IMG/VR virus record: IMGVR_UViG_3300030110_004154
Coordinates: 1 to 23,250 of that record
DNA from: a virus
DNA: 23,250 nucleotides
Reading direction: 5' to 3' (one strand)
In this document: one piece after another, positions 1 to 23,250 of the stretch
How positions within the stretch are numbered: the first letter of the stretch is position 1
How the letters are laid out: every line of letters begins with the position of its first letter
Translations under genes and position numbers: made by a program
Notes under the pieces: generated by a model
Seen by the model: the letters and a program-made list of their open reading frames with translations, nothing else
Database searches by the model: none
What the model was told of the DNA's origin: nothing

Positions 1-584
1 GCTACGTCCATCACGTCCCTCCACTTCTCATCCTGCAACCAGCGGTGGAACCCTGGCACATAACCGCCGGCCCATCCAGAGTTGGTGCTCTTCTCAAGCT
101 TGATGGCAGAGGCTATCTGCATCCGGTCTACCAACGGCATCTTGCGCCACACGTTCCAAGACTTACGCCTGCTCGAACGCTCCCTGCCTACCTTGGGGTA
201 ATCCTTCCAGGCATCCAAGAACACCTGGTCCTTGACCCAAGGCGTCTCATTGCGTGGAGCGTCACCCGCTTTCTTCAGAAGCTTGTTCTGGATATCTTGA
301 GTCTCTTGCTTTTTAGCCAGAGCCTTCTCCGCGAGAGCACCTTTCCGCTGTACTCCTATTGTCTCTGATATATTCTTTACCTTATTAGTTAATTCTAAAT
401 AAGAATTATTGCAAGGCGTGTGCCAAGGCTCATCAAGGAGCAGGCGATACACCGCTAACACCACGGCATGATTGACAGAACTGCATAGTATGCCGTCCTT
501 GCACACCACCTTAAGCGCATCCATCAAATACTTAGGGAATCTTATGGTCCGAACAACCTGTTCTGTAACCGCTTCTTTACTCAT
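1..584 (-). CDS. Putative phage replication protein, helicase-loader-like C-terminus (partial, cut by left edge)
   Basis: The frame is open from an ATG at 584 to the window edge (194 codons, no stop), so the C-terminus is missing. AGAGG lies 8 nt upstream of the ATG. Residues about 10-50 have a short strand-like stretch (VRTIRFPKYLMDAL) followed by helices, which could be a ribbon-helix-helix or winged-helix DNA-binding segment. Residues 65-105 are Lys/Glu/Gln-rich and probably helical. Residues 122-190 carry a pattern known from C-termini of phage O-like initiators and helicase loaders: FLDAWKDYPKVG, then basic residues and KSWNVW, then helices, then YVPGFHRWLQDEKW. In that family this part recruits the replicative helicase. 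The gene diverges from the recombination operon, which fits a replication region. The helicase-loader assignment is inference from the C-terminal pattern; a plain DNA-binding regulator is the alternative. Confidence 0.6.
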   Translation of the reverse strand, partial: MSKEAVTEQVVRTIRFPKYLMDALKVVCKDGILCSSVNHAVVLAVYRLLLDEPWHTPCNNSYLELTNKVKNISETIGVQRKGALAEKALAKKQETQDIQNKLLKKAGDAPRNETPWVKDQVFLDAWKDYPKVGRERSSRRKSWNVWRKMPLVDRMQIASAIKLEKSTNSGWAGGYVPGFHRWLQDEKWRDVMDV

Positions 585-654: not shown

Positions 655-685
655 TTGACAGGGGTGTCATACTTTATGCTACATA
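655..685 (+). promoter_or_regulatory. Probable early promoter for the rightward operon
   Basis: A perfect -35 hexamer TTGACA lies at 655-660. The -10 is ambiguous: TATGCT at 675-680 is the better match but leaves only a 14-nt spacer, while TACATA at 680-685 leaves 19 nt. Either would start transcription shortly before the ribosome-binding site at 707-711. No other strong promoter was seen for the four rightward genes, so this is the likely early promoter. The non-ideal spacing suggests activation or repression by a regulator. Confidence 0.45.
656..669. promoter_or_regulatory. Inverted repeat overlapping the early -35 box, candidate operator
   Basis: TGACA at 656-660 and TGTCA at 665-669 are perfect inverted arms around GGGG. 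The left arm lies inside the TTGACA -35 hexamer, so a dimeric protein bound here would block or alter RNA polymerase access. The arms are only 5 bp, so chance is possible. Confidence 0.3.
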
Positions 686-697
686 TCGGGTGTAACA

Positions 698-710
698 CAA
701 CCCACTAGGA
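698..710 (+). repeat. Left arm of a 13-bp perfect inverted repeat covering the first early ribosome-binding site
   Basis: CAACCCACTAGGA here is the exact reverse complement of TCCTAGTGGGTTG at 1120-1132. This arm includes most of the AGGAG Shine-Dalgarno of the gene starting at 718, so in the mRNA the two arms could pair and hide that ribosome-binding site. The match stops at both ends (697/1133 and 711/1119 do not pair). Confidence 0.6.
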
Positions 711-717
711 GATGGTG

Positions 718-1014
718 ATGGCAATTAAGATTGATATGACTAGCGAAAGCGTGAACCGGTACCAGGGTATCTGGGCTCACCAGCTACAGATGATTGACGT
801 GCTTCGTCGTACCATCATGACCGCTGACGAAATGGCCAAGGTGCTTGGCGCATTGTCGTTGGACATCGAGCCCCTCAACGAGGCATGCATGCACGTGTGC
901 TCTTCAGCTACAGAGCTGTTGCAAGACCTCGACCGTGCACAAGGCACGCTGGAGACCATGCTTGAGAACTTAGACACTGCCCTAGATGCACACTACGATA
1001 AGTCGTTTGACTAG
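718..1014 (+). CDS. Small helical early protein, function unknown
   Basis: 98 residues from the ATG at 718. An in-frame ATG at 712 directly abuts the AGGAG at 707-711, leaving no spacing, whereas 718 gives the usual 6 nt; I therefore prefer 718 (MAIKIDMTSE...). The protein is predicted almost wholly helical, mildly acidic, without signal peptide or membrane segment, and contains two cysteines in MHVCSSATELL-like helix context. I do not recognise a family. As the first gene of the early operon, directly after the promoter region, it could be an early regulator or host-interaction protein, but nothing in the sequence proves this. Its ribosome-binding site is complementary to a segment just downstream of the gene, so it may be under RNA-level control. 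Confidence 0.7.
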   Translation: MAIKIDMTSESVNRYQGIWAHQLQMIDVLRRTIMTADEMAKVLGALSLDIEPLNEACMHVCSSATELLQDLDRAQGTLETMLENLDTALDAHYDKSFD

Positions 1015-1029
1015 GGTACAATACGCGAG

Positions 1030-1165
1030 CCGCTTTCCTTGGTCGGGCAGCGGTAAGTGGAATGCCATGCAAGGTAAGGCATGAATCCTTGCAGGGTGTC
1101 TGTCCCTTAACACCACACATCCTAGTGGGTTGCCGGTACCTCGGCATCTCAAGGGGCAGGCACCC
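1030..1165 (+). ncRNA. Structured intergenic RNA of unknown class (leader or small RNA candidate)
   Basis: This stretch holds several nested or adjacent inverted repeats. P1: CCGCT 1030-1034 with AGCGG 1049-1053. P2: TGCAAGG 1068-1074 with CCTTGCA 1087-1093. P3: GGGTGTCTGTCCCTT 1094-1108 with 1151-1165, 15 pairs of which two are G-U. P4, inside P3: TGCCG 1131-1135 with CGGCA 1142-1146. P3 begins at the base after P2, so the two helices could stack. ATGCC 1062-1066 can also pair with GGCAT 1078-1082 in the P2 loop, making an H-type pseudoknot. No U-tract follows P3, so it is not an ordinary terminator. A possible -10 box TACAAT lies at 1017-1022 without a clear -35. The element ends 14 nt before the AAGGAGG of the next gene. 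It matches no riboswitch or ribozyme class that I recognise. Confidence 0.5.
1120..1132 (+). repeat. Right arm of the 13-bp inverted repeat, in the P3 loop of the structured RNA
   Basis: TCCTAGTGGGTTG is exactly complementary to 698-710. In the transcript it sits in the large apical loop of P3 (1109-1150). It begins with an anti-Shine-Dalgarno-like UCCU. Its last two bases overlap the start of stem P4, so full pairing would require partial opening of P4. Confidence 0.6.
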
Positions 1166-1189: not shown

Positions 1190-1729
1190 GTGGAGAAGAG
1201 AAGAAGCTCATGGGAAATCATGAACGACATTACCAAGATGGTGCATGACTACACCCACGTAATGTCGGACCCTGGAGCCAGTGAGGTGGAAGCCGAGCAC
1301 TACGAGAGTGAGTTCTGGAAGCAGTTCGATGCTGTCGTTGAGGAGCGCGACGAGAAGATGTTCGCGTGCAAGGTGGTAATAGAGAGGGCAAAGCTAGAGG
1401 CAGAAGAGGCCAGGAAGAAGTCTCGCCAGTGGACTGAGCGCGCGCGCATATTGAAGGGTCTGGCTGAGCGCGTGTCGGAGAATGTTGTCGGCATGATGAC
1501 TGCCAACAATGACAAGAAGGTCACGCTCTCTGATAACTCCAAGGCTACGCTGTGCGAGCGCACCGCATATGACTTGGTGGGTGAGCTATGCCCCGACTCA
1601 TTGCCCGATAGGTTCATTAAGAAGGAGGTCAATAAAGGTTTAATTAAGAAAGCGTTAAGGCAGAAAGAAGAAGTAAAAGGGGTGACCCTTAAGGAAAGGA
1701 CAACAAGGTTTATACGATGGTCAATCTGA
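1190..1729 (+). CDS. Gp157-family phage protein
   Basis: 179 residues from a GTG at 1190, preceded by a strong AAGGAGG at 1178-1184. An upstream in-frame TTG at 1130 lies inside the structured RNA and has no ribosome-binding site, so I reject it. Residues about 45-110 are a long charged coiled coil rich in Glu, Lys and Arg (ERDEKMFACKVVIERAKLEAEEARKKSRQW). The C-terminal part has the layout of the Siphovirus Gp157 family: a beta-like stretch, then LPDRFIKKEVNKGLIKKALR, then EEVKGVTLKERTTRF near the end. Known members are early proteins, usually beside annealing and ssDNA-binding proteins, linked in the literature to phage resistance or nuclease inhibition; the biochemical role is not settled. 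The last 13 nt overlap the next gene. Confidence 0.75.
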   Translation: MEKRRSSWEIMNDITKMVHDYTHVMSDPGASEVEAEHYESEFWKQFDAVVEERDEKMFACKVVIERAKLEAEEARKKSRQWTERARILKGLAERVSENVVGMMTANNDKKVTLSDNSKATLCERTAYDLVGELCPDSLPDRFIKKEVNKGLIKKALRQKEEVKGVTLKERTTRFIRWSI

Positions 1730-4334: not shown

Positions 4335-7300
4335 TTACTTCCTCTTTGCCCATCTTTCGTTCAGCTCTCGCATTGCTTCTCTATCAAGCTCACGGGTGCT
4401 TTTCTGGGGCAGGATTGCGACTTCTTTTTTGCTTGCGGGTTCGTAGCCAAGGCTTTCTAGTTCTCTCTTAATGCCCATTCTTAACAGTTCTATCTCTGCA
4501 TCTACAGCCCAGCCCACTGCCAAGTTCCTGCGCTTAATTGCTTCGAGGTCCACCCTGTCCTTGTCCGTTCTGGGGGTATACGGTGTTGTTTGCAGGCTTT
4601 TTTTCCACTCGCTTGCAAGCTTGTTGAGAGATTTGTTCACGTAATTTTGTACGTCAATCTGGTCTTTTTTCCTCAGATAAGAGTCGTCTCTTATTCCAAT
4701 GTACTCTCGCACCGCTTGAGTGACATTTCCTCCATCCTTAAAAGTCTTGGTGGCAATGTCACCCACCATCTTGGAGCCGGTTGCCATCCCTACAAGCTGA
4801 GCAATAATGTAAGGAGACAAGTCATCTGCTGAAGGTCCCCATGACTTGACGGTTTCAGCAATCAATGGGCCTGCCCCGCCCATTTGTAAACCAAAAATAA
4901 CGGCCAGGTCGCTTGCCTTGTTGCCAAGCGATGGGAGTGCAGACCTCACTTCCTCTACTATCTTCAGTCTTTTCTCAGGGTCTGCAAGCGTGCGGGCCGC
5001 GTCTACAATGCGTTCAAGCCTTAGAAACTTCGGGGTTCTATCTCTTCTGTCACGTTCAGTCAAACCGCTGGGTCCGCTCTTAACCCTTGCTGCAACTATC
5101 GAATCAAGCGCAGCCCTTTGAGGGCTGCCTTCAGTAATGAAGTCTTGTATGCTGCCATCGAGACTAGAACCCGCAGCCTCTTTGCCTCGCAAAGACATTG
5201 TAGCCTTGCCAAGCAATCGGAACAGCGGAATCTGTGCGCCCGATACCTCAAAGCGGTTCATCATAAACCGAGTCATTCCGCCGGGACCCTTTGTCAACAA
5301 ACCCATAAAGGGAGCGTCTTTCGTAGGGCCATACCCGCTCAACATCCTAATCTTATCAACTTCAGATTCAGGCAGCTGTCGCGCCATCTGCGATGACAGC
5401 ACGACCCCAAGCCTTCCCCTGGCCTGCCTCGCCTTGCCCGCGCCTATAAGCTTTGTGACGTTCGGGTCTGTAGACTTTATGCCTGACAGCCCTCCGTTAA
5501 TAATATGCTTTGCTAGCCCCTCTTTTAAACCTGGAACCCACATAGCCTTCCAGAACCATGAATAAAATGGAGACGCAAAGACGTCCATGCCCGACTCACG
5601 CAACAGCCGGTTCAGGCCAGACACCTTACTGTAATCAAAATAAAGCCTATTCCCGGCCAAACGTCCCGCTTCCGCCAACAAGGAGGACACCTGCTTGGGT
5701 GACAACTTTCGACCGCGTTGGTTGTTGAGCCGAAAATTCCCGTTTATGTCCTTATAAATTGTCATGCTTCTTTCTGGTGACACGTCGAACGTAAGGGTCT
5801 TTTGTTTTCCCATAGTTTTCAGGCCCTTATCCAAGAGCCTGCCGACAATAAGTCCCCTCTCAAGCTTGAACCATACATCGGATAAACGGTACGCTGTCTC
5901 CATCTTTGTAAGTGCACCCTTCCACAGGTTTAGACCCTTAGATGCGGTCCGCACCAACAGGTTGTCGGCTGCGGTTGCGGTGCCCTGCATGACTTTAGAG
6001 AAAGCCTGAGCCGCATCAGAGTCACTTGCCTCTGCCAGCCACTTGCCAAACTTGTCGGCTACGCCCTTGCCTAAAGCCTGCCTGACTTCAACAGAGGTAA
6101 AGTCTCCCCACCCTGCCTTCTCCCACTCTTTTATCATGGCCATGTCTAGCTCAAGCTTTTCCGCCAGCGCATTATTCTTTTGCTTTCTTGCTTGTGTTAT
6201 TTGCCTCTGAAGTGCTCCGCTTTTGTACCTGTTATAAACGCCTGTAGCCTCTAGCAACCCAATCGGTGTGACGTTTCCATCCACCATTGCACGTAAGGCC
6301 AGGTTGGAAATAAGGTTACCAGCAAACGTAATGGGGTTCATTGCCGTCATCATCGCTTTCCAAGATGAGCTTGCCATCTTTAGCAGGCCTTTACCGGCAA
6401 CGCCCCCTCCAAACAATCCCCTCCATCTCTGGTCAAACTTTATAAAGTCCTGCACTTCTGGTTGGATATAAAGGTTGGACCCCTCGTCAAACCCAAGCCA
6501 CTTCTTTTGCTCTGCGGTTGCCGGTCTTAATCCAACATCTTCCGGCGACCTACCGGCAAGGGTTGCGTCTGTCGCCGCCGTTATCTGCCCTTGGTTCTCC
6601 CCCTTTATTGCCCCCGCAGAGTTTGCAACTTCTTCTTCGAGCATTAAGCGGCGCTCTTTTGCAAGTATCTGTGAAGACACAAAATCCGTATCGTCAATAA
6701 GTTGCGCAAGCCCTTGGGCCCTTGTTTGCGGGTTGAGAATAGTTGCCTCCACCTCAGGAGAGATTCTTGTCCGCTGACGTTCTCCAAATAAAAACTCACG
6801 CCCTCTCTCTAGGGTCTCTGCGGTTTTTCTTCTCCCTTCCATCAAAGCGCCAATAAGGCCATCGCTACTCGTGACTGCGCCTAGACCGCCGGCAGGAGTT
6901 GACGGCTTGGGTGTAAGGGACTGCAAGTACCTAACAGTCTCTGCATTTGACGCTGCTACTTGAAATGGCTTTCCTGACTCAAGCCCTGCAATGACGTGGG
7001 CAATCGACTGTCTTGAGGGGTTGACTCCCTGCCGAGGCGCACCTGTGGTAGGGTCAAGTATTGCTCCATAGCTACTTGTGTGAACCGGCTCCGCCCTTAA
7101 GACCCCCTCGTCGATAACCATGACGGGAATATCTGACTGGCTAATGACATCGGTGTTTACGACCGGGCGACCTTTGACGTACTTTGGAGAGCCCGGCTTT
7201 CCTCGGACACCTTCGTATTGCACGCTTCCTTTAGCGTCTAGGGTCTCCTTGTATAGCGCCCCTTGCGCCTGCTCGATGTCTTTTGTGATTCTAGCGGGAA

Positions 7301-10241
7301 GTTCGTTGCTTAATCTATTCTCTATGTAACGCGCTCTTTTTGCTTGTATTTCAGAGCGAGACAATCCTTGTTCAGCCCATTTTTTCTCTAGCTTGGGGAG
7401 GGCACCCTCAATCGAATCCATAAGGTCCTTGCGAACCATGTCTTCTTGGGCCTTTCTAAGCTCAACCAACAGAGGCTCGGTTGACGCAGACCTTTGCACG
7501 GTAACCGCATGCGGGCCTCCGCCTTGGTCTGAGAGAGCCTCAACATAGGCCGGGTAAAGCTCATCAAACTCAACCAGCCTTCCCTCGTCGCGAACACTTC
7601 TAGCCGAAGCGCCATCCATTACATCTTGAAAGTATGCGTCGTCTGCCACACGCGCCGCGACCGGGGGTCTCGGAACTGCGACAGGCGAAGGCTTAGGAAG
7701 CGGCGGAGGACCCTGGGCAGGCAAAGGCGGTGGACCTTGAGTCGGAAGCGGCGGGGGCACAGGGGCTTCTGGGCGCGGCAGCGGGGGAGGTCCAGGTGGC
7801 GCATCATCAAAAGCTGGCCTGCCTGGGACGGTAGCATCATCAAAAGCTGGCCTGCCTGGGACGGTAGCATCATCGAATACTGGCCTGCCTGGGACGGTGA
7901 CGTCTTGTCGAGGCGCAGCAGGTCTAGCGTCTGATGCCGACCCTGATAAGTCCATTCTGCTTTGGCGAGGAAAGCTTACATAGCTAGAAGGGCTTCCTGG
8001 TGGAGACTGGGCCGGAAGGTCGAGTGTTCCTGCCAACGCCGCTCTATCTTGCGCAGGCACTCTTAGCAGGTCACCGTCTTCAGCGAGCCTTTTAATTGCA
8101 TCGTAGTAAGACCCGTTTGTTCTTTGCACGGTTGCAATGACCGCATCGTAACCCAGCGCGTTTAGAAACTCTTGAGACAGGACCTCTTTGGGAACCGTAT
8201 CAAGAGCATCCATTTCTTTTATGACGTCTGCGGCACTCGCGTTTTCCCCAATGGATTCTCTTAGTTTAGCCTTTTGCTGGTTATACAAATTCTTTGCATC
8301 TTCTGCCCTCTCAAGCTTTCGAGTAACGCGGTACTCTGGACCTGTAGGTCTAATAAGAAAGTTCTGTAGGGCTGTCATAAATTTGCCAACCGGAGCCATT
8401 GCCGCACCGACTTGCTGCAATGCAGGTCCATATAGTTGATATCCAGGCAACGCCTGGGCAGCTATCTTTACCGGCGCAAACATGAGTGCGCCATCCACCT
8501 GGTTGAGGACCCCGGTGATTAGCTCGTACCGGCTTACTTGTTTTCCACGCATTGCCTTTGGCACGTAGGGTTTGTTTGGTGCCGTTACCATTTTCTTTTG
8601 CAGATGCGACTTTAATACAGGGTTCATCTTAAGCGCACGCGCTGCCCCGGTAAACGTCATCAACGTAAACAAAGGGTCTGACTCAAACGCTGTTCCGGGG
8701 TGCTTTGCAACGTTAGTAATGCTGGCACCCAGTGCCTGGACCATGTTTCTAACCGTGTCGGCACGCTTGCCGGAACGCATAAGGTCGTACTCTTTTGCCG
8801 TAAGAGGACGGAATACGCCTCGGTTCCTCATGTCTGCAATGACTGACCGTTTGACTATTTCTGGAACGTCGTCCCCAAGCAACCCGTAGGTTTCCCAAAT
8901 CAACTGGCCCAAGCCAACTACCATCTCACCAATGTTTTTTGCAAAGTTGAGGGGGAGGCTGTCTTTGCCTCGCTTTTCTATTCGAGCCTTGTCGGCAGCC
9001 AGTGCTTGGGCAAACGCTGCGCTTCCAGCATCTTCAGAGCGGTCAAAGAAGCCTGGCTGAAAACCAGTCCAGTCAGTGGGTAGCGACCTGTAAACACCCC
9101 GTGCTATTCCTTCTCCTGCTCTAGCGACAGGGGTTCCAAGAAGATACGTGCCAAGCGCCCCCATTGGGCCTCCCGATAGAAACCCTACTGCCGCTTTTCC
9201 TAGGCCACCCTTGCTTGGCGCTTTCTCATCAACGCCATACCTGTCTAGCGATTTGCCTTCAAGGGACGCTCTTCGCTCGTCTTCTACCGTTTTGTCCGAT
9301 GCCAGGCGGTACGCGCCCAGCTTCTTTAGGTAGGGGTTAATGATTGCCTTGGCGTCTTCGCTGTACTCTTTGTCGTACCTGCCATCGTAGAAGTCGTCTA
9401 CGATTCCTTCTGCGGTACTTAACAATAGCCGGTCAGTTTCTTCTTTCGACTTGTCTTGCAGTAATAACCCAAACCCTCTCTTCTCTAGCATCTCCCTTGC
9501 GGCACCCATCAGTTCTCGCGAGGGTTTAGACCTTAGCTTTAGAAAAGCCTCTTTAAGGTTGTCTGCCCGCCTAGCGTCCTCACTTTTTACCGGCTGCCCT
9601 GGCGCAGACACCAGTTCCCCGCTGCCAAGCATGCGGTCGGCAAAAGCTATTTGTCCTATAGCCGTGCGGTTAAAAAGGCTAAGAGGAACGCTTACTGACT
9701 CTAAAGCCTTACGCGCAGCAAGCGCAACTTTCTCTGGGTCATAGGTTCCCTTCTTGCGACTTTCGCGTATTCTGCGAGATATTTCTTTTCTTGCTTGCTC
9801 AGGAAATGGCGTTGGCGTGCGCGTTGGTGTAATCGGCTTCTTGTACCGAAGGCTTGTCTGTGCAAGCTGATAAGGAAACACAGCATCGTCAGCCCCCATG
9901 CTTTCGTTTGCTTTGGGTGGCTCTGGCTCTGGCTGCTTTGCTGAGCGAAACAAAGGGTCATCCGTTTGCTTTACCGGAGCCCCAAGCTGTCTTGCCAATC
10001 TTCTTGCTGCCTGCACACCAGGCGCAAGCTGTTCGCCTCTTTTCTTTCTTTCTAGAAGCTCACGATACACTTCGCCGGCACGCTCGTGCCCTCTAGTCTT
10101 TTCTTCAATCGGAGTAAGAAGCTCAAGAAGTTCGCTTTGCTTCTTAAACCTTTTACGGCGTCTCGCTTTCTTAGATTTGACCCCCCTTCCAACGCGGTCA
10201 ATATACTCCCCAAGCAGCTCAGGACCTTTTTTGTTGCTCAT
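4335..10241 (-). CDS. Giant internal virion / DNA-ejection protein (probable), 1968 residues
   Basis: 1968 residues from the ATG at 10241, preceded by AAGGGG and TTAGG and only 3 nt after the previous stop. The N-terminus is very basic (KKARRRKRFKKQ). Glycine/alanine-rich hydrophobic stretches, possibly membrane-active, occur near residues 345-375, 430-460 and 575-625. A low-complexity region at about 780-860 holds three 11-residue repeats (TVPGRPAFDDA type) and PPPLP motifs. Near 1265-1320 is a segment of the type WKAMMTAMNPITFAGNLISNL, and near 1530-1570 is FDYSKVSGLNRLLRESG with PFYSWFWKAM. Both resemble modules of very large phage polyvalent or internal virion proteins (LPD38-like, from memory). 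No lytic transglycosylase motif was found. Order after the 219- and 614-residue genes mirrors T7 gp14-gp15-gp16, so I infer the largest ejection protein. Confidence 0.6.
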   Translation of the reverse strand: MSNKKGPELLGEYIDRVGRGVKSKKARRRKRFKKQSELLELLTPIEEKTRGHERAGEVYRELLERKKRGEQLAPGVQAARRLARQLGAPVKQTDDPLFRSAKQPEPEPPKANESMGADDAVFPYQLAQTSLRYKKPITPTRTPTPFPEQARKEISRRIRESRKKGTYDPEKVALAARKALESVSVPLSLFNRTAIGQIAFADRMLGSGELVSAPGQPVKSEDARRADNLKEAFLKLRSKPSRELMGAAREMLEKRGFGLLLQDKSKEETDRLLLSTAEGIVDDFYDGRYDKEYSEDAKAIINPYLKKLGAYRLASDKTVEDERRASLEGKSLDRYGVDEKAPSKGGLGKAAVGFLSGGPMGALGTYLLGTPVARAGEGIARGVYRSLPTDWTGFQPGFFDRSEDAGSAAFAQALAADKARIEKRGKDSLPLNFAKNIGEMVVGLGQLIWETYGLLGDDVPEIVKRSVIADMRNRGVFRPLTAKEYDLMRSGKRADTVRNMVQALGASITNVAKHPGTAFESDPLFTLMTFTGAARALKMNPVLKSHLQKKMVTAPNKPYVPKAMRGKQVSRYELITGVLNQVDGALMFAPVKIAAQALPGYQLYGPALQQVGAAMAPVGKFMTALQNFLIRPTGPEYRVTRKLERAEDAKNLYNQQKAKLRESIGENASAADVIKEMDALDTVPKEVLSQEFLNALGYDAVIATVQRTNGSYYDAIKRLAEDGDLLRVPAQDRAALAGTLDLPAQSPPGSPSSYVSFPRQSRMDLSGSASDARPAAPRQDVTVPGRPVFDDATVPGRPAFDDATVPGRPAFDDAPPGPPPLPRPEAPVPPPLPTQGPPPLPAQGPPPLPKPSPVAVPRPPVAARVADDAYFQDVMDGASARSVRDEGRLVEFDELYPAYVEALSDQGGGPHAVTVQRSASTEPLLVELRKAQEDMVRKDLMDSIEGALPKLEKKWAEQGLSRSEIQAKRARYIENRLSNELPARITKDIEQAQGALYKETLDAKGSVQYEGVRGKPGSPKYVKGRPVVNTDVISQSDIPVMVIDEGVLRAEPVHTSSYGAILDPTTGAPRQGVNPSRQSIAHVIAGLESGKPFQVAASNAETVRYLQSLTPKPSTPAGGLGAVTSSDGLIGALMEGRRKTAETLERGREFLFGERQRTRISPEVEATILNPQTRAQGLAQLIDDTDFVSSQILAKERRLMLEEEVANSAGAIKGENQGQITAATDATLAGRSPEDVGLRPATAEQKKWLGFDEGSNLYIQPEVQDFIKFDQRWRGLFGGGVAGKGLLKMASSSWKAMMTAMNPITFAGNLISNLALRAMVDGNVTPIGLLEATGVYNRYKSGALQRQITQARKQKNNALAEKLELDMAMIKEWEKAGWGDFTSVEVRQALGKGVADKFGKWLAEASDSDAAQAFSKVMQGTATAADNLLVRTASKGLNLWKGALTKMETAYRLSDVWFKLERGLIVGRLLDKGLKTMGKQKTLTFDVSPERSMTIYKDINGNFRLNNQRGRKLSPKQVSSLLAEAGRLAGNRLYFDYSKVSGLNRLLRESGMDVFASPFYSWFWKAMWVPGLKEGLAKHIINGGLSGIKSTDPNVTKLIGAGKARQARGRLGVVLSSQMARQLPESEVDKIRMLSGYGPTKDAPFMGLLTKGPGGMTRFMMNRFEVSGAQIPLFRLLGKATMSLRGKEAAGSSLDGSIQDFITEGSPQRAALDSIVAARVKSGPSGLTERDRRDRTPKFLRLERIVDAARTLADPEKRLKIVEEVRSALPSLGNKASDLAVIFGLQMGGAGPLIAETVKSWGPSADDLSPYIIAQLVGMATGSKMVGDIATKTFKDGGNVTQAVREYIGIRDDSYLRKKDQIDVQNYVNKSLNKLASEWKKSLQTTPYTPRTDKDRVDLEAIKRRNLAVGWAVDAEIELLRMGIKRELESLGYEPASKKEVAILPQKSTRELDREAMRELNERWAKRK
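7801..7899 (-). repeat. Three tandem 33-bp repeats in the giant ejection gene
   Basis: Units are 7801-7833, 7834-7866 and 7867-7899. The first two are identical and the third differs at 4 positions. They encode three copies of an 11-residue unit of the form TVPGRPAFDDA just before a PPPLP-rich tract. The length keeps the frame, so copy number could vary without breaking the protein. It is probably a flexible linker. Confidence 0.9.
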
Positions 10242-22450: not shown

Positions 22451-22468
22451 GGGGACCTCCTAAAGGAA

Positions 22469-22492
22469 GGGGGGCCGAAGCCCCCCTTTTTT
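22469..22492 (-). terminator. Hairpin terminator or attenuator after the major capsid gene
   Basis: On the minus strand a 7-bp GC stem (GGGGGGC and GCCCCCC) with a UUCG tetraloop lies just after the capsid stop, preceded by six A and followed by UUCCUUU. The UUCG loop suggests this orientation. The trailing U-tract is interrupted, so termination is probably partial and would lower expression of downstream genes relative to capsid. On the plus strand the same hairpin (22469-22486) is followed by six U, so it may also stop antisense transcription. Confidence 0.7.
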
Positions 22493-22500
22493 AGTGCAAC

Positions 22501-23250
22501 CTAGTTGTATCCGATGAGGATGCAGTTGTTATTGGGATGCTTTGCAACAACATTCCAATACCAACGATAGTAACCCTCAAACGCATCGCTGTTTCCAACT
22601 CGCGAGAGGACGTTTCCATCAAGGTCAGCAAACCCAGGCGACTGAAGCTCGGTCAGGCACCAGGAGTCTTTGCGCATGAAAATCATGGCGCGACGGTGAC
22701 AGGCGCGGCTCGTGCGAATTGGCACACCGGCAAACGCGATGTCCAAGAACGAACCGTCACCCTTAGCCTTGGTTCCAGCGGGGTTCATCTGGATAGTCGC
22801 GTTAAGGATTCCGATATAAGCCTGACGGTCAACAGGGTTGAGCAGGATAATATCGGGAGCCTCTCCACCACCACCGGGAAGCGTTCCGCCACCGGCACCA
22901 GGCGTAGCCTGCGGGTCAAGGTCAACAGCGTCCATAAGAGCAGTCATGCGCGGAAGCGCAAGAACCGCTCGGCCCTGGTCGCGAGGCGCTGCAAACGTCA
23001 CGCCGCCCGGAACATTCACCTGGACGTGTCCACGCAACGACGGAGCTGCACCATCGGCAGCAACCGCAGGCACGGCAGTTCCGTCCTGAACATTCCGCGT
23101 AACACCGTAGTGTGCCGCCGAAGACAGGTTGGTGTAGATTCCATTCGCTTCCGCAAACGTAGCAACAGTCACCGCACCAGCGGCAGCCGGAAGGAGGCCT
23201 GGGTTAAGTGCGCTGTTGTTCACTCCTACTGGCGCATTGGCATTATCGAC
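22501..23250 (-). CDS. Major capsid protein, C-terminal part (partial, cut by right edge)
   Basis: The frame is open from the window end at 23250 to the stop at 22501 (249 residues visible). A GTG at 23223 has no Shine-Dalgarno and lies in a continuing open frame, so I do not take it as the start. The C-terminal region has the pattern of HK97-fold capsid proteins of podoviruses: APDIILLNPVDRQAYIGIL, GSFLDIAFAGVPIRTSRA, MIFMRKDSWCLTELQSPGF, then YYRWYWNVVAKHPNNNCIL. A Gly/Pro-rich insert lies before it (TPGAGGGTLPGGGGEAPD). It assembles the icosahedral head. The downstream hairpin suggests capsid is made in excess over the rest of the late operon. Confidence 0.75.
   Translation of the reverse strand, partial: VDNANAPVGVNNSALNPGLLPAAAGAVTVATFAEANGIYTNLSSAAHYGVTRNVQDGTAVPAVAADGAAPSLRGHVQVNVPGGVTFAAPRDQGRAVLALPRMTALMDAVDLDPQATPGAGGGTLPGGGGEAPDIILLNPVDRQAYIGILNATIQMNPAGTKAKGDGSFLDIAFAGVPIRTSRACHRRAMIFMRKDSWCLTELQSPGFADLDGNVLSRVGNSDAFEGYYRWYWNVVAKHPNNNCILIGYN

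Follow-up and report, generated by a model that had tools for sequence, protein, structure and literature searches.

The early operon of the phage analysed here carries, between its first gene (gene A) and the gene that follows (gene B), a structured RNA at positions 1094–1165 of the plus strand. We propose with moderate confidence, on the strength of sequence comparisons, that it is a trans-acting phage antisense small RNA, which would be cut from the early mRNA and would block the translation of early lead genes. The window is the whole stretch of DNA that was analysed, 23,250 nt long (positions 1 to 23,250 of the IMG/VR record IMGVR_UViG_3300030110_004154). Its relative G001 (IMGVR_UViG_3300044267_003698) is an IMG/VR contig of 29.8 kb, and L063 denotes the part of G001 beyond the coverage of the window.

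A Three-Way-Junction RNA between Genes A and B

The gap that the first-pass annotation had described as 175 nt of non-coding DNA extends from 1015 to 1189, between a gene stop at 1014 and a GTG at 1190. The stem that had been placed in it, 1094–1108 with 1151–1165, has exactly 15 bp and exactly two G-U pairs, as claimed. The other hairpins of the gap fared unevenly: two are present inside the stem, the upstream pair is weak, and one that can be drawn over the Shine–Dalgarno (SD) sequence of gene B (1168–1190) was not significant when compared with shuffles (z = +0.2) and is altered in G001. The elements of the RNA are as follows:

1094..1165 (+): core structured RNA of 72 nt (77 nt in G001), in which a 15-bp stem closes a three-way junction that bears two hairpins
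1094..1108 (+): 5' strand of this stem, GGGTGTCTGTCCCTT; one U to C change in G001 turns U-G into C-G
1151..1165 (+): 3' strand of the same stem, AAGGGGCAGGCACCC; one G to A change in G001 turns U-G into U-A
1109..1132 (+): hairpin 1, with the stem AAC/GUU plus CCAC/GUGG and an 8-nt apical loop, ACAUCCUA, containing the anti-SD core UCCUA
1132..1147 (+): hairpin 2, GCCGGUACCUCGGC, which reads GCCGGUUUCGCUCGGC in G001; the stem is kept, the loop is not
1024..1093 (+): two upstream predicted hairpins (about 1024–1059 and 1065–1093; z = −2.0), possibly part of a precursor

Segment 1090–1168 folded at −41.2 kcal/mol, compared with −24.1 ± 2.8 kcal/mol for its dinucleotide shuffles (z = −6.06), and 0 of 200 shuffles folded as well; the core RNA folds gave z values of −6.06 and −5.70, and the fold of the whole gap (1015–1190) gave −4.93. 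The reverse strand folded more weakly (z = −2.89), because both G-U pairs turn into A-C mismatches there. A GC-corrected scan of both strands placed the segment that begins at 1089 (+) second among 5,794 windows of 80 nt (−4.35 SD). The strongest predicted fold in that scan, at 22465–22544 (−4.4 SD), overlaps the gap between the major capsid gene and the next gene. As to the upstream hairpins, their paired bases are identical in G001, the sole relative, and they thus gain no comparative support.

The closing stem is followed by ATCTTTAAC and not by the U run that comes after the GC stem of an intrinsic terminator, and the consensus scan flagged no terminator. The same kind of scan revealed no dedicated promoter before the RNA beyond chance expectation, and the ARAGORN model gave no match to a tRNA or tmRNA. 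Small antisense ORFs over the RNA locus and a 53-aa ORF at 1062–1223 were considered and rejected, as nothing supported them.

Retention of the RNA in a Related Phage

G001 is 97% identical to the window across 6.2 kb, and the RNA is present in it. The two versions of the RNA differ by two substitutions in the stem and by an insertion of 3 nt on the 5' side of loop 1, and loop 2 has been remodelled. Both substitutions convert a G-U pair of the window into a Watson–Crick pair (A-U and C-G), so that all 15 pairs stay, and the retention of the stem in a related phage, which had been named as a check, is borne out. The indels within the RNA are confined to loops, and the anti-SD stretch CACATCCTAGTGGGTTG is invariant, while the insertion lies just 5' of it and its flanks change. 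Two pair-preserving changes alone would be modest evidence for an RNA structure; the combination of changing loops with a kept stem and a kept loop core is more telling. The suggested collection of related sequences yielded one relative with pair-preserving changes; the window and G001 are the only two sequences with the RNA in the searched collections, too few for a true covariation test.

Relatives were sought by scanning viral contigs with the proteins P0001, P0002, P0003, P0007 and DnaC and with the alignments A1 and A2. No RNA-bearing relative besides G001 was found in the scanned viral contigs, the INPHARED phages or the GTDB genomes. The contig of a sister phage (L008/G003, 78% portal identity) stops inside DnaC, before the RNA region. 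A match to the stem in L015 lies within a coding gene and was dismissed as due to chance.

The Early Operon around the RNA

The portal of the phage is P22-like, and its large terminase subunit belongs to Terminase_6; in G001, the helicase loader is on the other strand. A tyrosine integrase was found neither in the window contig nor in G001, both of which are incomplete. The features of the operon that concern the RNA are the following:

655..685 (+): putative early promoter, read from the sequence, with TTGACA at 655–660 and a −10-like element at about 675–685
718..1014 (+): early gene A (ATG at 718, or the in-frame ATG at 712), encoding 98–100 aa of no known family; predicted cis target
1190..1729 (+): gene B, Gp157/Gam-like, with the SD AAGGAGG at 1178–1184; probably co-transcribed

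Downstream of the RNA, the operon thus encodes a Gp157/Gam-like protein and then a protein of a single-strand-annealing/exonuclease family. The putative promoter at 655–685 is absent from the output of the consensus scan. A perfect inverted repeat, TGACA-GGGG-TGTCA (656–669), overlaps its TTGACA −35 element and is likely to be a repressor operator. In the sister phage L008, a similar TTGAC-GGTAGC-GTCAA occurs upstream of an early gene near 1343. A protein encoded divergently to the early operon (window 1–584, minus strand; L063 12887–13528), the N-terminus of which resembles a ribbon-helix-helix DNA-binding domain by eye, had no Pfam or PHROG match and is a candidate early repressor. Elsewhere in the window, a strong terminator-like hairpin with a T run (2892–2918) marks the meeting point of the early (+) operon and the late (−) genes, and positions 4335–10241 encode a 1968-aa protein with proline-rich repeats and without a PHROG match, which is probably a large virion or ejection protein.

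Complementarity of the Loop to Ribosome-Binding Sites

A repeat search of positions 560–1800 revealed a feature that the first-pass annotation had overlooked: a 13-nt perfect inverted repeat that makes the loop of the RNA complementary to the SD of the upstream gene, gene A. In G001, a second forward early region, contained in L063, holds two further SD regions to which CACATCCTAGT, located in the loop and overlapping the 13-nt stretch, is an 11-nt perfect complement. As the contig of the window does not cover the second early region, the trans sites are known from G001 alone. The segments involved are as follows:

1120..1132 (+): antisense segment TCCTAGTGGGTTG, the perfect 13-nt reverse complement of 698–710, formed by the apical loop and the 3' strand of hairpin 1
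698..710 (+): cis target CAACCCACTAGGA, covering the SD (AGGAG, 707–711) of the first early gene, gene A
L063:7285 (+): trans site 1, AAACTAGGATGTGATGTTATG, with the 11-nt match at L063:7287; ribosome-binding site of the gene with the ATG at 7303
near L063:9486 (+): trans site 2, AAACTAGGATGTGAGACAATG, with the 11-nt match at L063:9488; ribosome-binding site of the gene with the ATG at 9504

The two trans ribosome-binding sites share 14 nt, and their common sequence is AAACTAGGATGTGA. The site at L063:7285 is preceded by a putative promoter (TTGACT-17-TATGGT), as read from the sequence, and the site at L063:9486 by a weaker one. The predicted target genes match no named function.

Complementarity of this extent turned out to be rare. 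A cis match of at least 13 nt was obtained with 2 of 60,000 dinucleotide shuffles of the RNA and with 0 of 7,636 natural segments, and two trans matches of 11 nt or longer with 24 of the 60,000 shuffles and, again, with 0 of the 7,636 natural segments. Neither set contained a sequence with one cis and two trans matches that each reached at least 11 nt (0/60,000 and 0/7,636). When overlapping 44-nt segments of G001 (both strands) were compared with its ribosome-binding sites, only 7 of 14,182 matched two sites over at least 11 nt, and all seven cover the loop of the RNA. A single match of at least 11 nt to a ribosome-binding site is not rare (2.9% of natural segments). The three matches are also not fully independent, because the ribosome-binding sites share the core CTAGGA or CCAGGA. 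Moreover, ribosome-binding sites sharing motifs of 10–12 nt occur in several related phages, and we therefore rejected the shared motif as a stand-alone proof.

When pairing was weighted by accessibility, the two trans sites ranked first and second of all tested ribosome-binding sites, and the gene A site of the window came next. The hybridisation energy itself is unexceptional (best −11.5, compared with a median best of −8.6 for 100 RNAs with shuffled loops); these controls are too close for the ranking to serve as a proof, and it was rejected as such. The cis site of G001, CAACCCACCAGGA, has one central C-A mismatch to the RNA, ranks low and is predicted to pair poorly. Possibly, it is the trans sites that constrain the loop, and the cis site drifts, which one relative cannot show. 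The loop of hairpin 2 (GGTACC) matches gene A near 757–762 in the window, but this match is lost in G001, and we consequently rejected GGUACC as a second antisense loop or a kissing dimer.

Proposed Mechanism and Alternative Explanations

The 13-nt match between the loop and the SD of gene A suggests that the RNA acts on other ribosome-binding sites rather than on the gene that follows it. What we infer for its processing, pairing in the cell, repression and timing is as follows. The early operon transcript would span gene A, the RNA and gene B onward, and the three-way junction of 72–77 nt would be cut out of it; release by processing is probable because there is no terminator after the RNA and no promoter beyond chance before it. 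The 8-nt loop of hairpin 1 would then display UCCUA, nucleate on UAGGA at ribosome-binding sites and zip outward. On the gene A mRNA, the pairing would extend to the 3' side of the RNA and reach 13 bp, and on the two mRNAs of the second early region, it would extend to the 5' side and reach 11 bp each. The duplex would cover the SD and block ribosome entry. As the RNA would accumulate along with the early mRNA, the result would be a delayed negative feedback on the early lead genes. Such a mechanism predicts an RNA of 72–77 nt and a loop core, UCCUA, and an SD core, UAGGA, that can be exchanged as a pair.

Among the roles that the first-pass annotation had listed for the element (leader, riboswitch-like switch, ribozyme or small RNA), the small RNA is the one that is favored, while a leader, a riboswitch and a ribozyme are disfavored by the lack of any Rfam match and by the insignificant SD hairpin. 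Its remark that no known class was recognised agrees with our Rfam comparison, in which no family matched even at E ≤ 10. Gene B could still have a structured leader, i.e., a regulated 5' UTR that is riboswitch-like or bound by a protein, with fortuitous SD complementarities, as 12 nt lie between the end of the stem and the SD of gene B, and a hairpin can be drawn over this SD. However, that hairpin is no better than shuffles and is changed in G001, riboswitch and ribozyme families gave no covariance match at E ≤ 10, and the complementarities would be left unexplained, all of which makes a leader unlikely. Long intercistronic stems are typical RNase III or stabilising features, and the element might simply be a signal of RNA processing or stability (an RNase III or RNase E site, or an intercistronic stabiliser) placed to keep the two genes apart. 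A conserved internal loop is not required in such stems, whereas the conserved part here is the loop, which is complementary to ribosome-binding sites, and we ascribe to a mere processing signal only a slight probability.

The matches to ribosome-binding sites could also be explained in two other ways. The loop might act in cis only, pairing within one mRNA with the SD of gene A, about 410 nt upstream, so that gene A would be shut off once the RNA region is transcribed, with no free small RNA involved. The longest complementarity, 13 nt, is indeed to the upstream gene on the same transcript, and no terminator or convincing promoter of its own bounds a free RNA; yet the cis pairing in G001 is mismatched, while the loop stretch is invariant and matches two ribosome-binding sites on other transcripts, so that we give the cis-only arrangement little credence. 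Anti-SD loops can hit many mRNAs, and the main targets might accordingly be mRNAs of the host or of a competing phage, with a function in immunity or exclusion and with the matches in the phage's own genome being secondary. The c4 RNA of P1 and P7 acts in heteroimmunity (PMC12197685). Against foreign targets, the phage's own early ribosome-binding sites match better than expected and no tyrosine integrase was found in either contig, and we consider this the least probable of the alternatives. A trans-acting antisense RNA directed at the phage's own early genes remains our preferred reading.

Ribosome-Binding Sites of Other Phages

A screen of 20 related phage contigs, which serves as a rough gauge of false positives, gave no second convincing case of the same design; the screen overlooked the present RNA, where its crude gene caller set a spurious antisense ORF. 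The matches that it gave in G014 represent the opposite strand of a repeated ribosome-binding site and were rejected. Four ribosome-binding sites of G014 (20400, 21108, 22197 and 22524 in the joined coordinates of L177 and L178) share TCCGAGGAGGA. In three of them, the sequence is GTCCGAGGAGGACA, which could fold into a self-hairpin, GUCC-GAGGA-GGAC, that hides the SD, and the last two (22197 and 22524) are preceded by a CCCCCTCATGCGAGGG hairpin; the set looks like a repeated regulatory leader. In L146 (290–2540), several ribosome-binding sites share GGGGAATC or GGGAATCACT just before the ATG, and this contig holds a distant relative of the L063:9504 gene.

In the sister phage L008, the early ribosome-binding sites at 1343, 2067 and 2520 carry GCTACCAGGA, which occurs nowhere else on that strand of the locus. 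An equivalent RNA with a different seed may target them. If so, the L008 RNA should carry a TCCTGGTAGC-like sequence, which is a prediction and not evidence.

Comparison with Known Antisense RNAs

The closest parallel to the RNA is c4 of P1, which comprises 77 nt (RF01695; NC_005856 48343–48419) and, by its fold, has a 17-bp closing stem, a UUCG hairpin and a hairpin with a 9-nt loop. Its targets are sites that precede it on its own transcript and, downstream, the ribosome-binding site of icd. In C4 RNAs, RNase P reportedly cuts at the 5' end of the stem, and of the loops a' and b', loop b' covers ribosome-binding sites (PMC5320573). The RNA described here resembles P1 c4 in size (72/77 nt vs. 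77 nt), in the long closing stem around two hairpins, in being antisense to a ribosome-binding site sequence, and in having a target upstream on the transcript in which it is embedded. However, the hairpin with the large loop comes first and the small one second, whereas C4 has its small UUCG hairpin first and the one with the larger loop second. Both loops of C4, a' and b', are complementary to the target, whereas here one loop is, the second not being complementary in both relatives, and the 5' end is GGG, compared with GGW cited for C4 (PMC5320573). The predicted targets lie in two separate early regions. C4 controls an antirepressor in a temperate phage; no antirepressor was found near the present RNA, in contigs that are incomplete and with predicted target genes that match no named function. 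At E ≤ 10, the C4 model (RF01695) matched neither G000 nor G001, while P1 c4 scored 68.8 bits with it; likewise, a search for the a1b1 target element (RF03163) of C4 found it in P1 but not here. The RNA would thus work like C4 without being a C4 member.

A complementary site upstream on the same transcript is also known from the CI RNA of P4, which is processed from the early leader transcript and pairs with the upstream seqA (PMC4825925). CI RNA, however, causes premature transcription termination in an untranslated transcript through the sites seqA and seqC, whereas the sites described here are the SDs of translated genes, and a seqC-like site was not found downstream of the RNA, so that on this transcript the upstream site is the only one found. 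The sar RNA of P22 is a small hairpin-rich phage RNA that keeps a phage mRNA from being translated by pairing with it (PMC13397905). It is encoded near ant, on the strand opposite to its target, and is transcribed from a promoter of its own (PMC13397905 and references therein), in contrast to the present RNA, which is on the same strand as its predicted targets, with these located elsewhere.

As far as we found, the phage antisense RNAs described to act on ribosome-binding sites (c4 and sar) belong to temperate phages and have one main target. Tentatively, and as a possibility to which we assign less than even chances, the RNA may represent a new class of phage regulatory RNA, in which one early three-way-junction RNA coordinately silences the lead genes of several early units through one two-sided anti-SD loop. 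Such a class would have arisen independently of C4, with the order of the hairpins reversed, in a phage without a detected integrase. If this is true, a c4-like shape with an unrelated sequence, targeted at separate early operons, would suggest that the design arises repeatedly and can time early infection.
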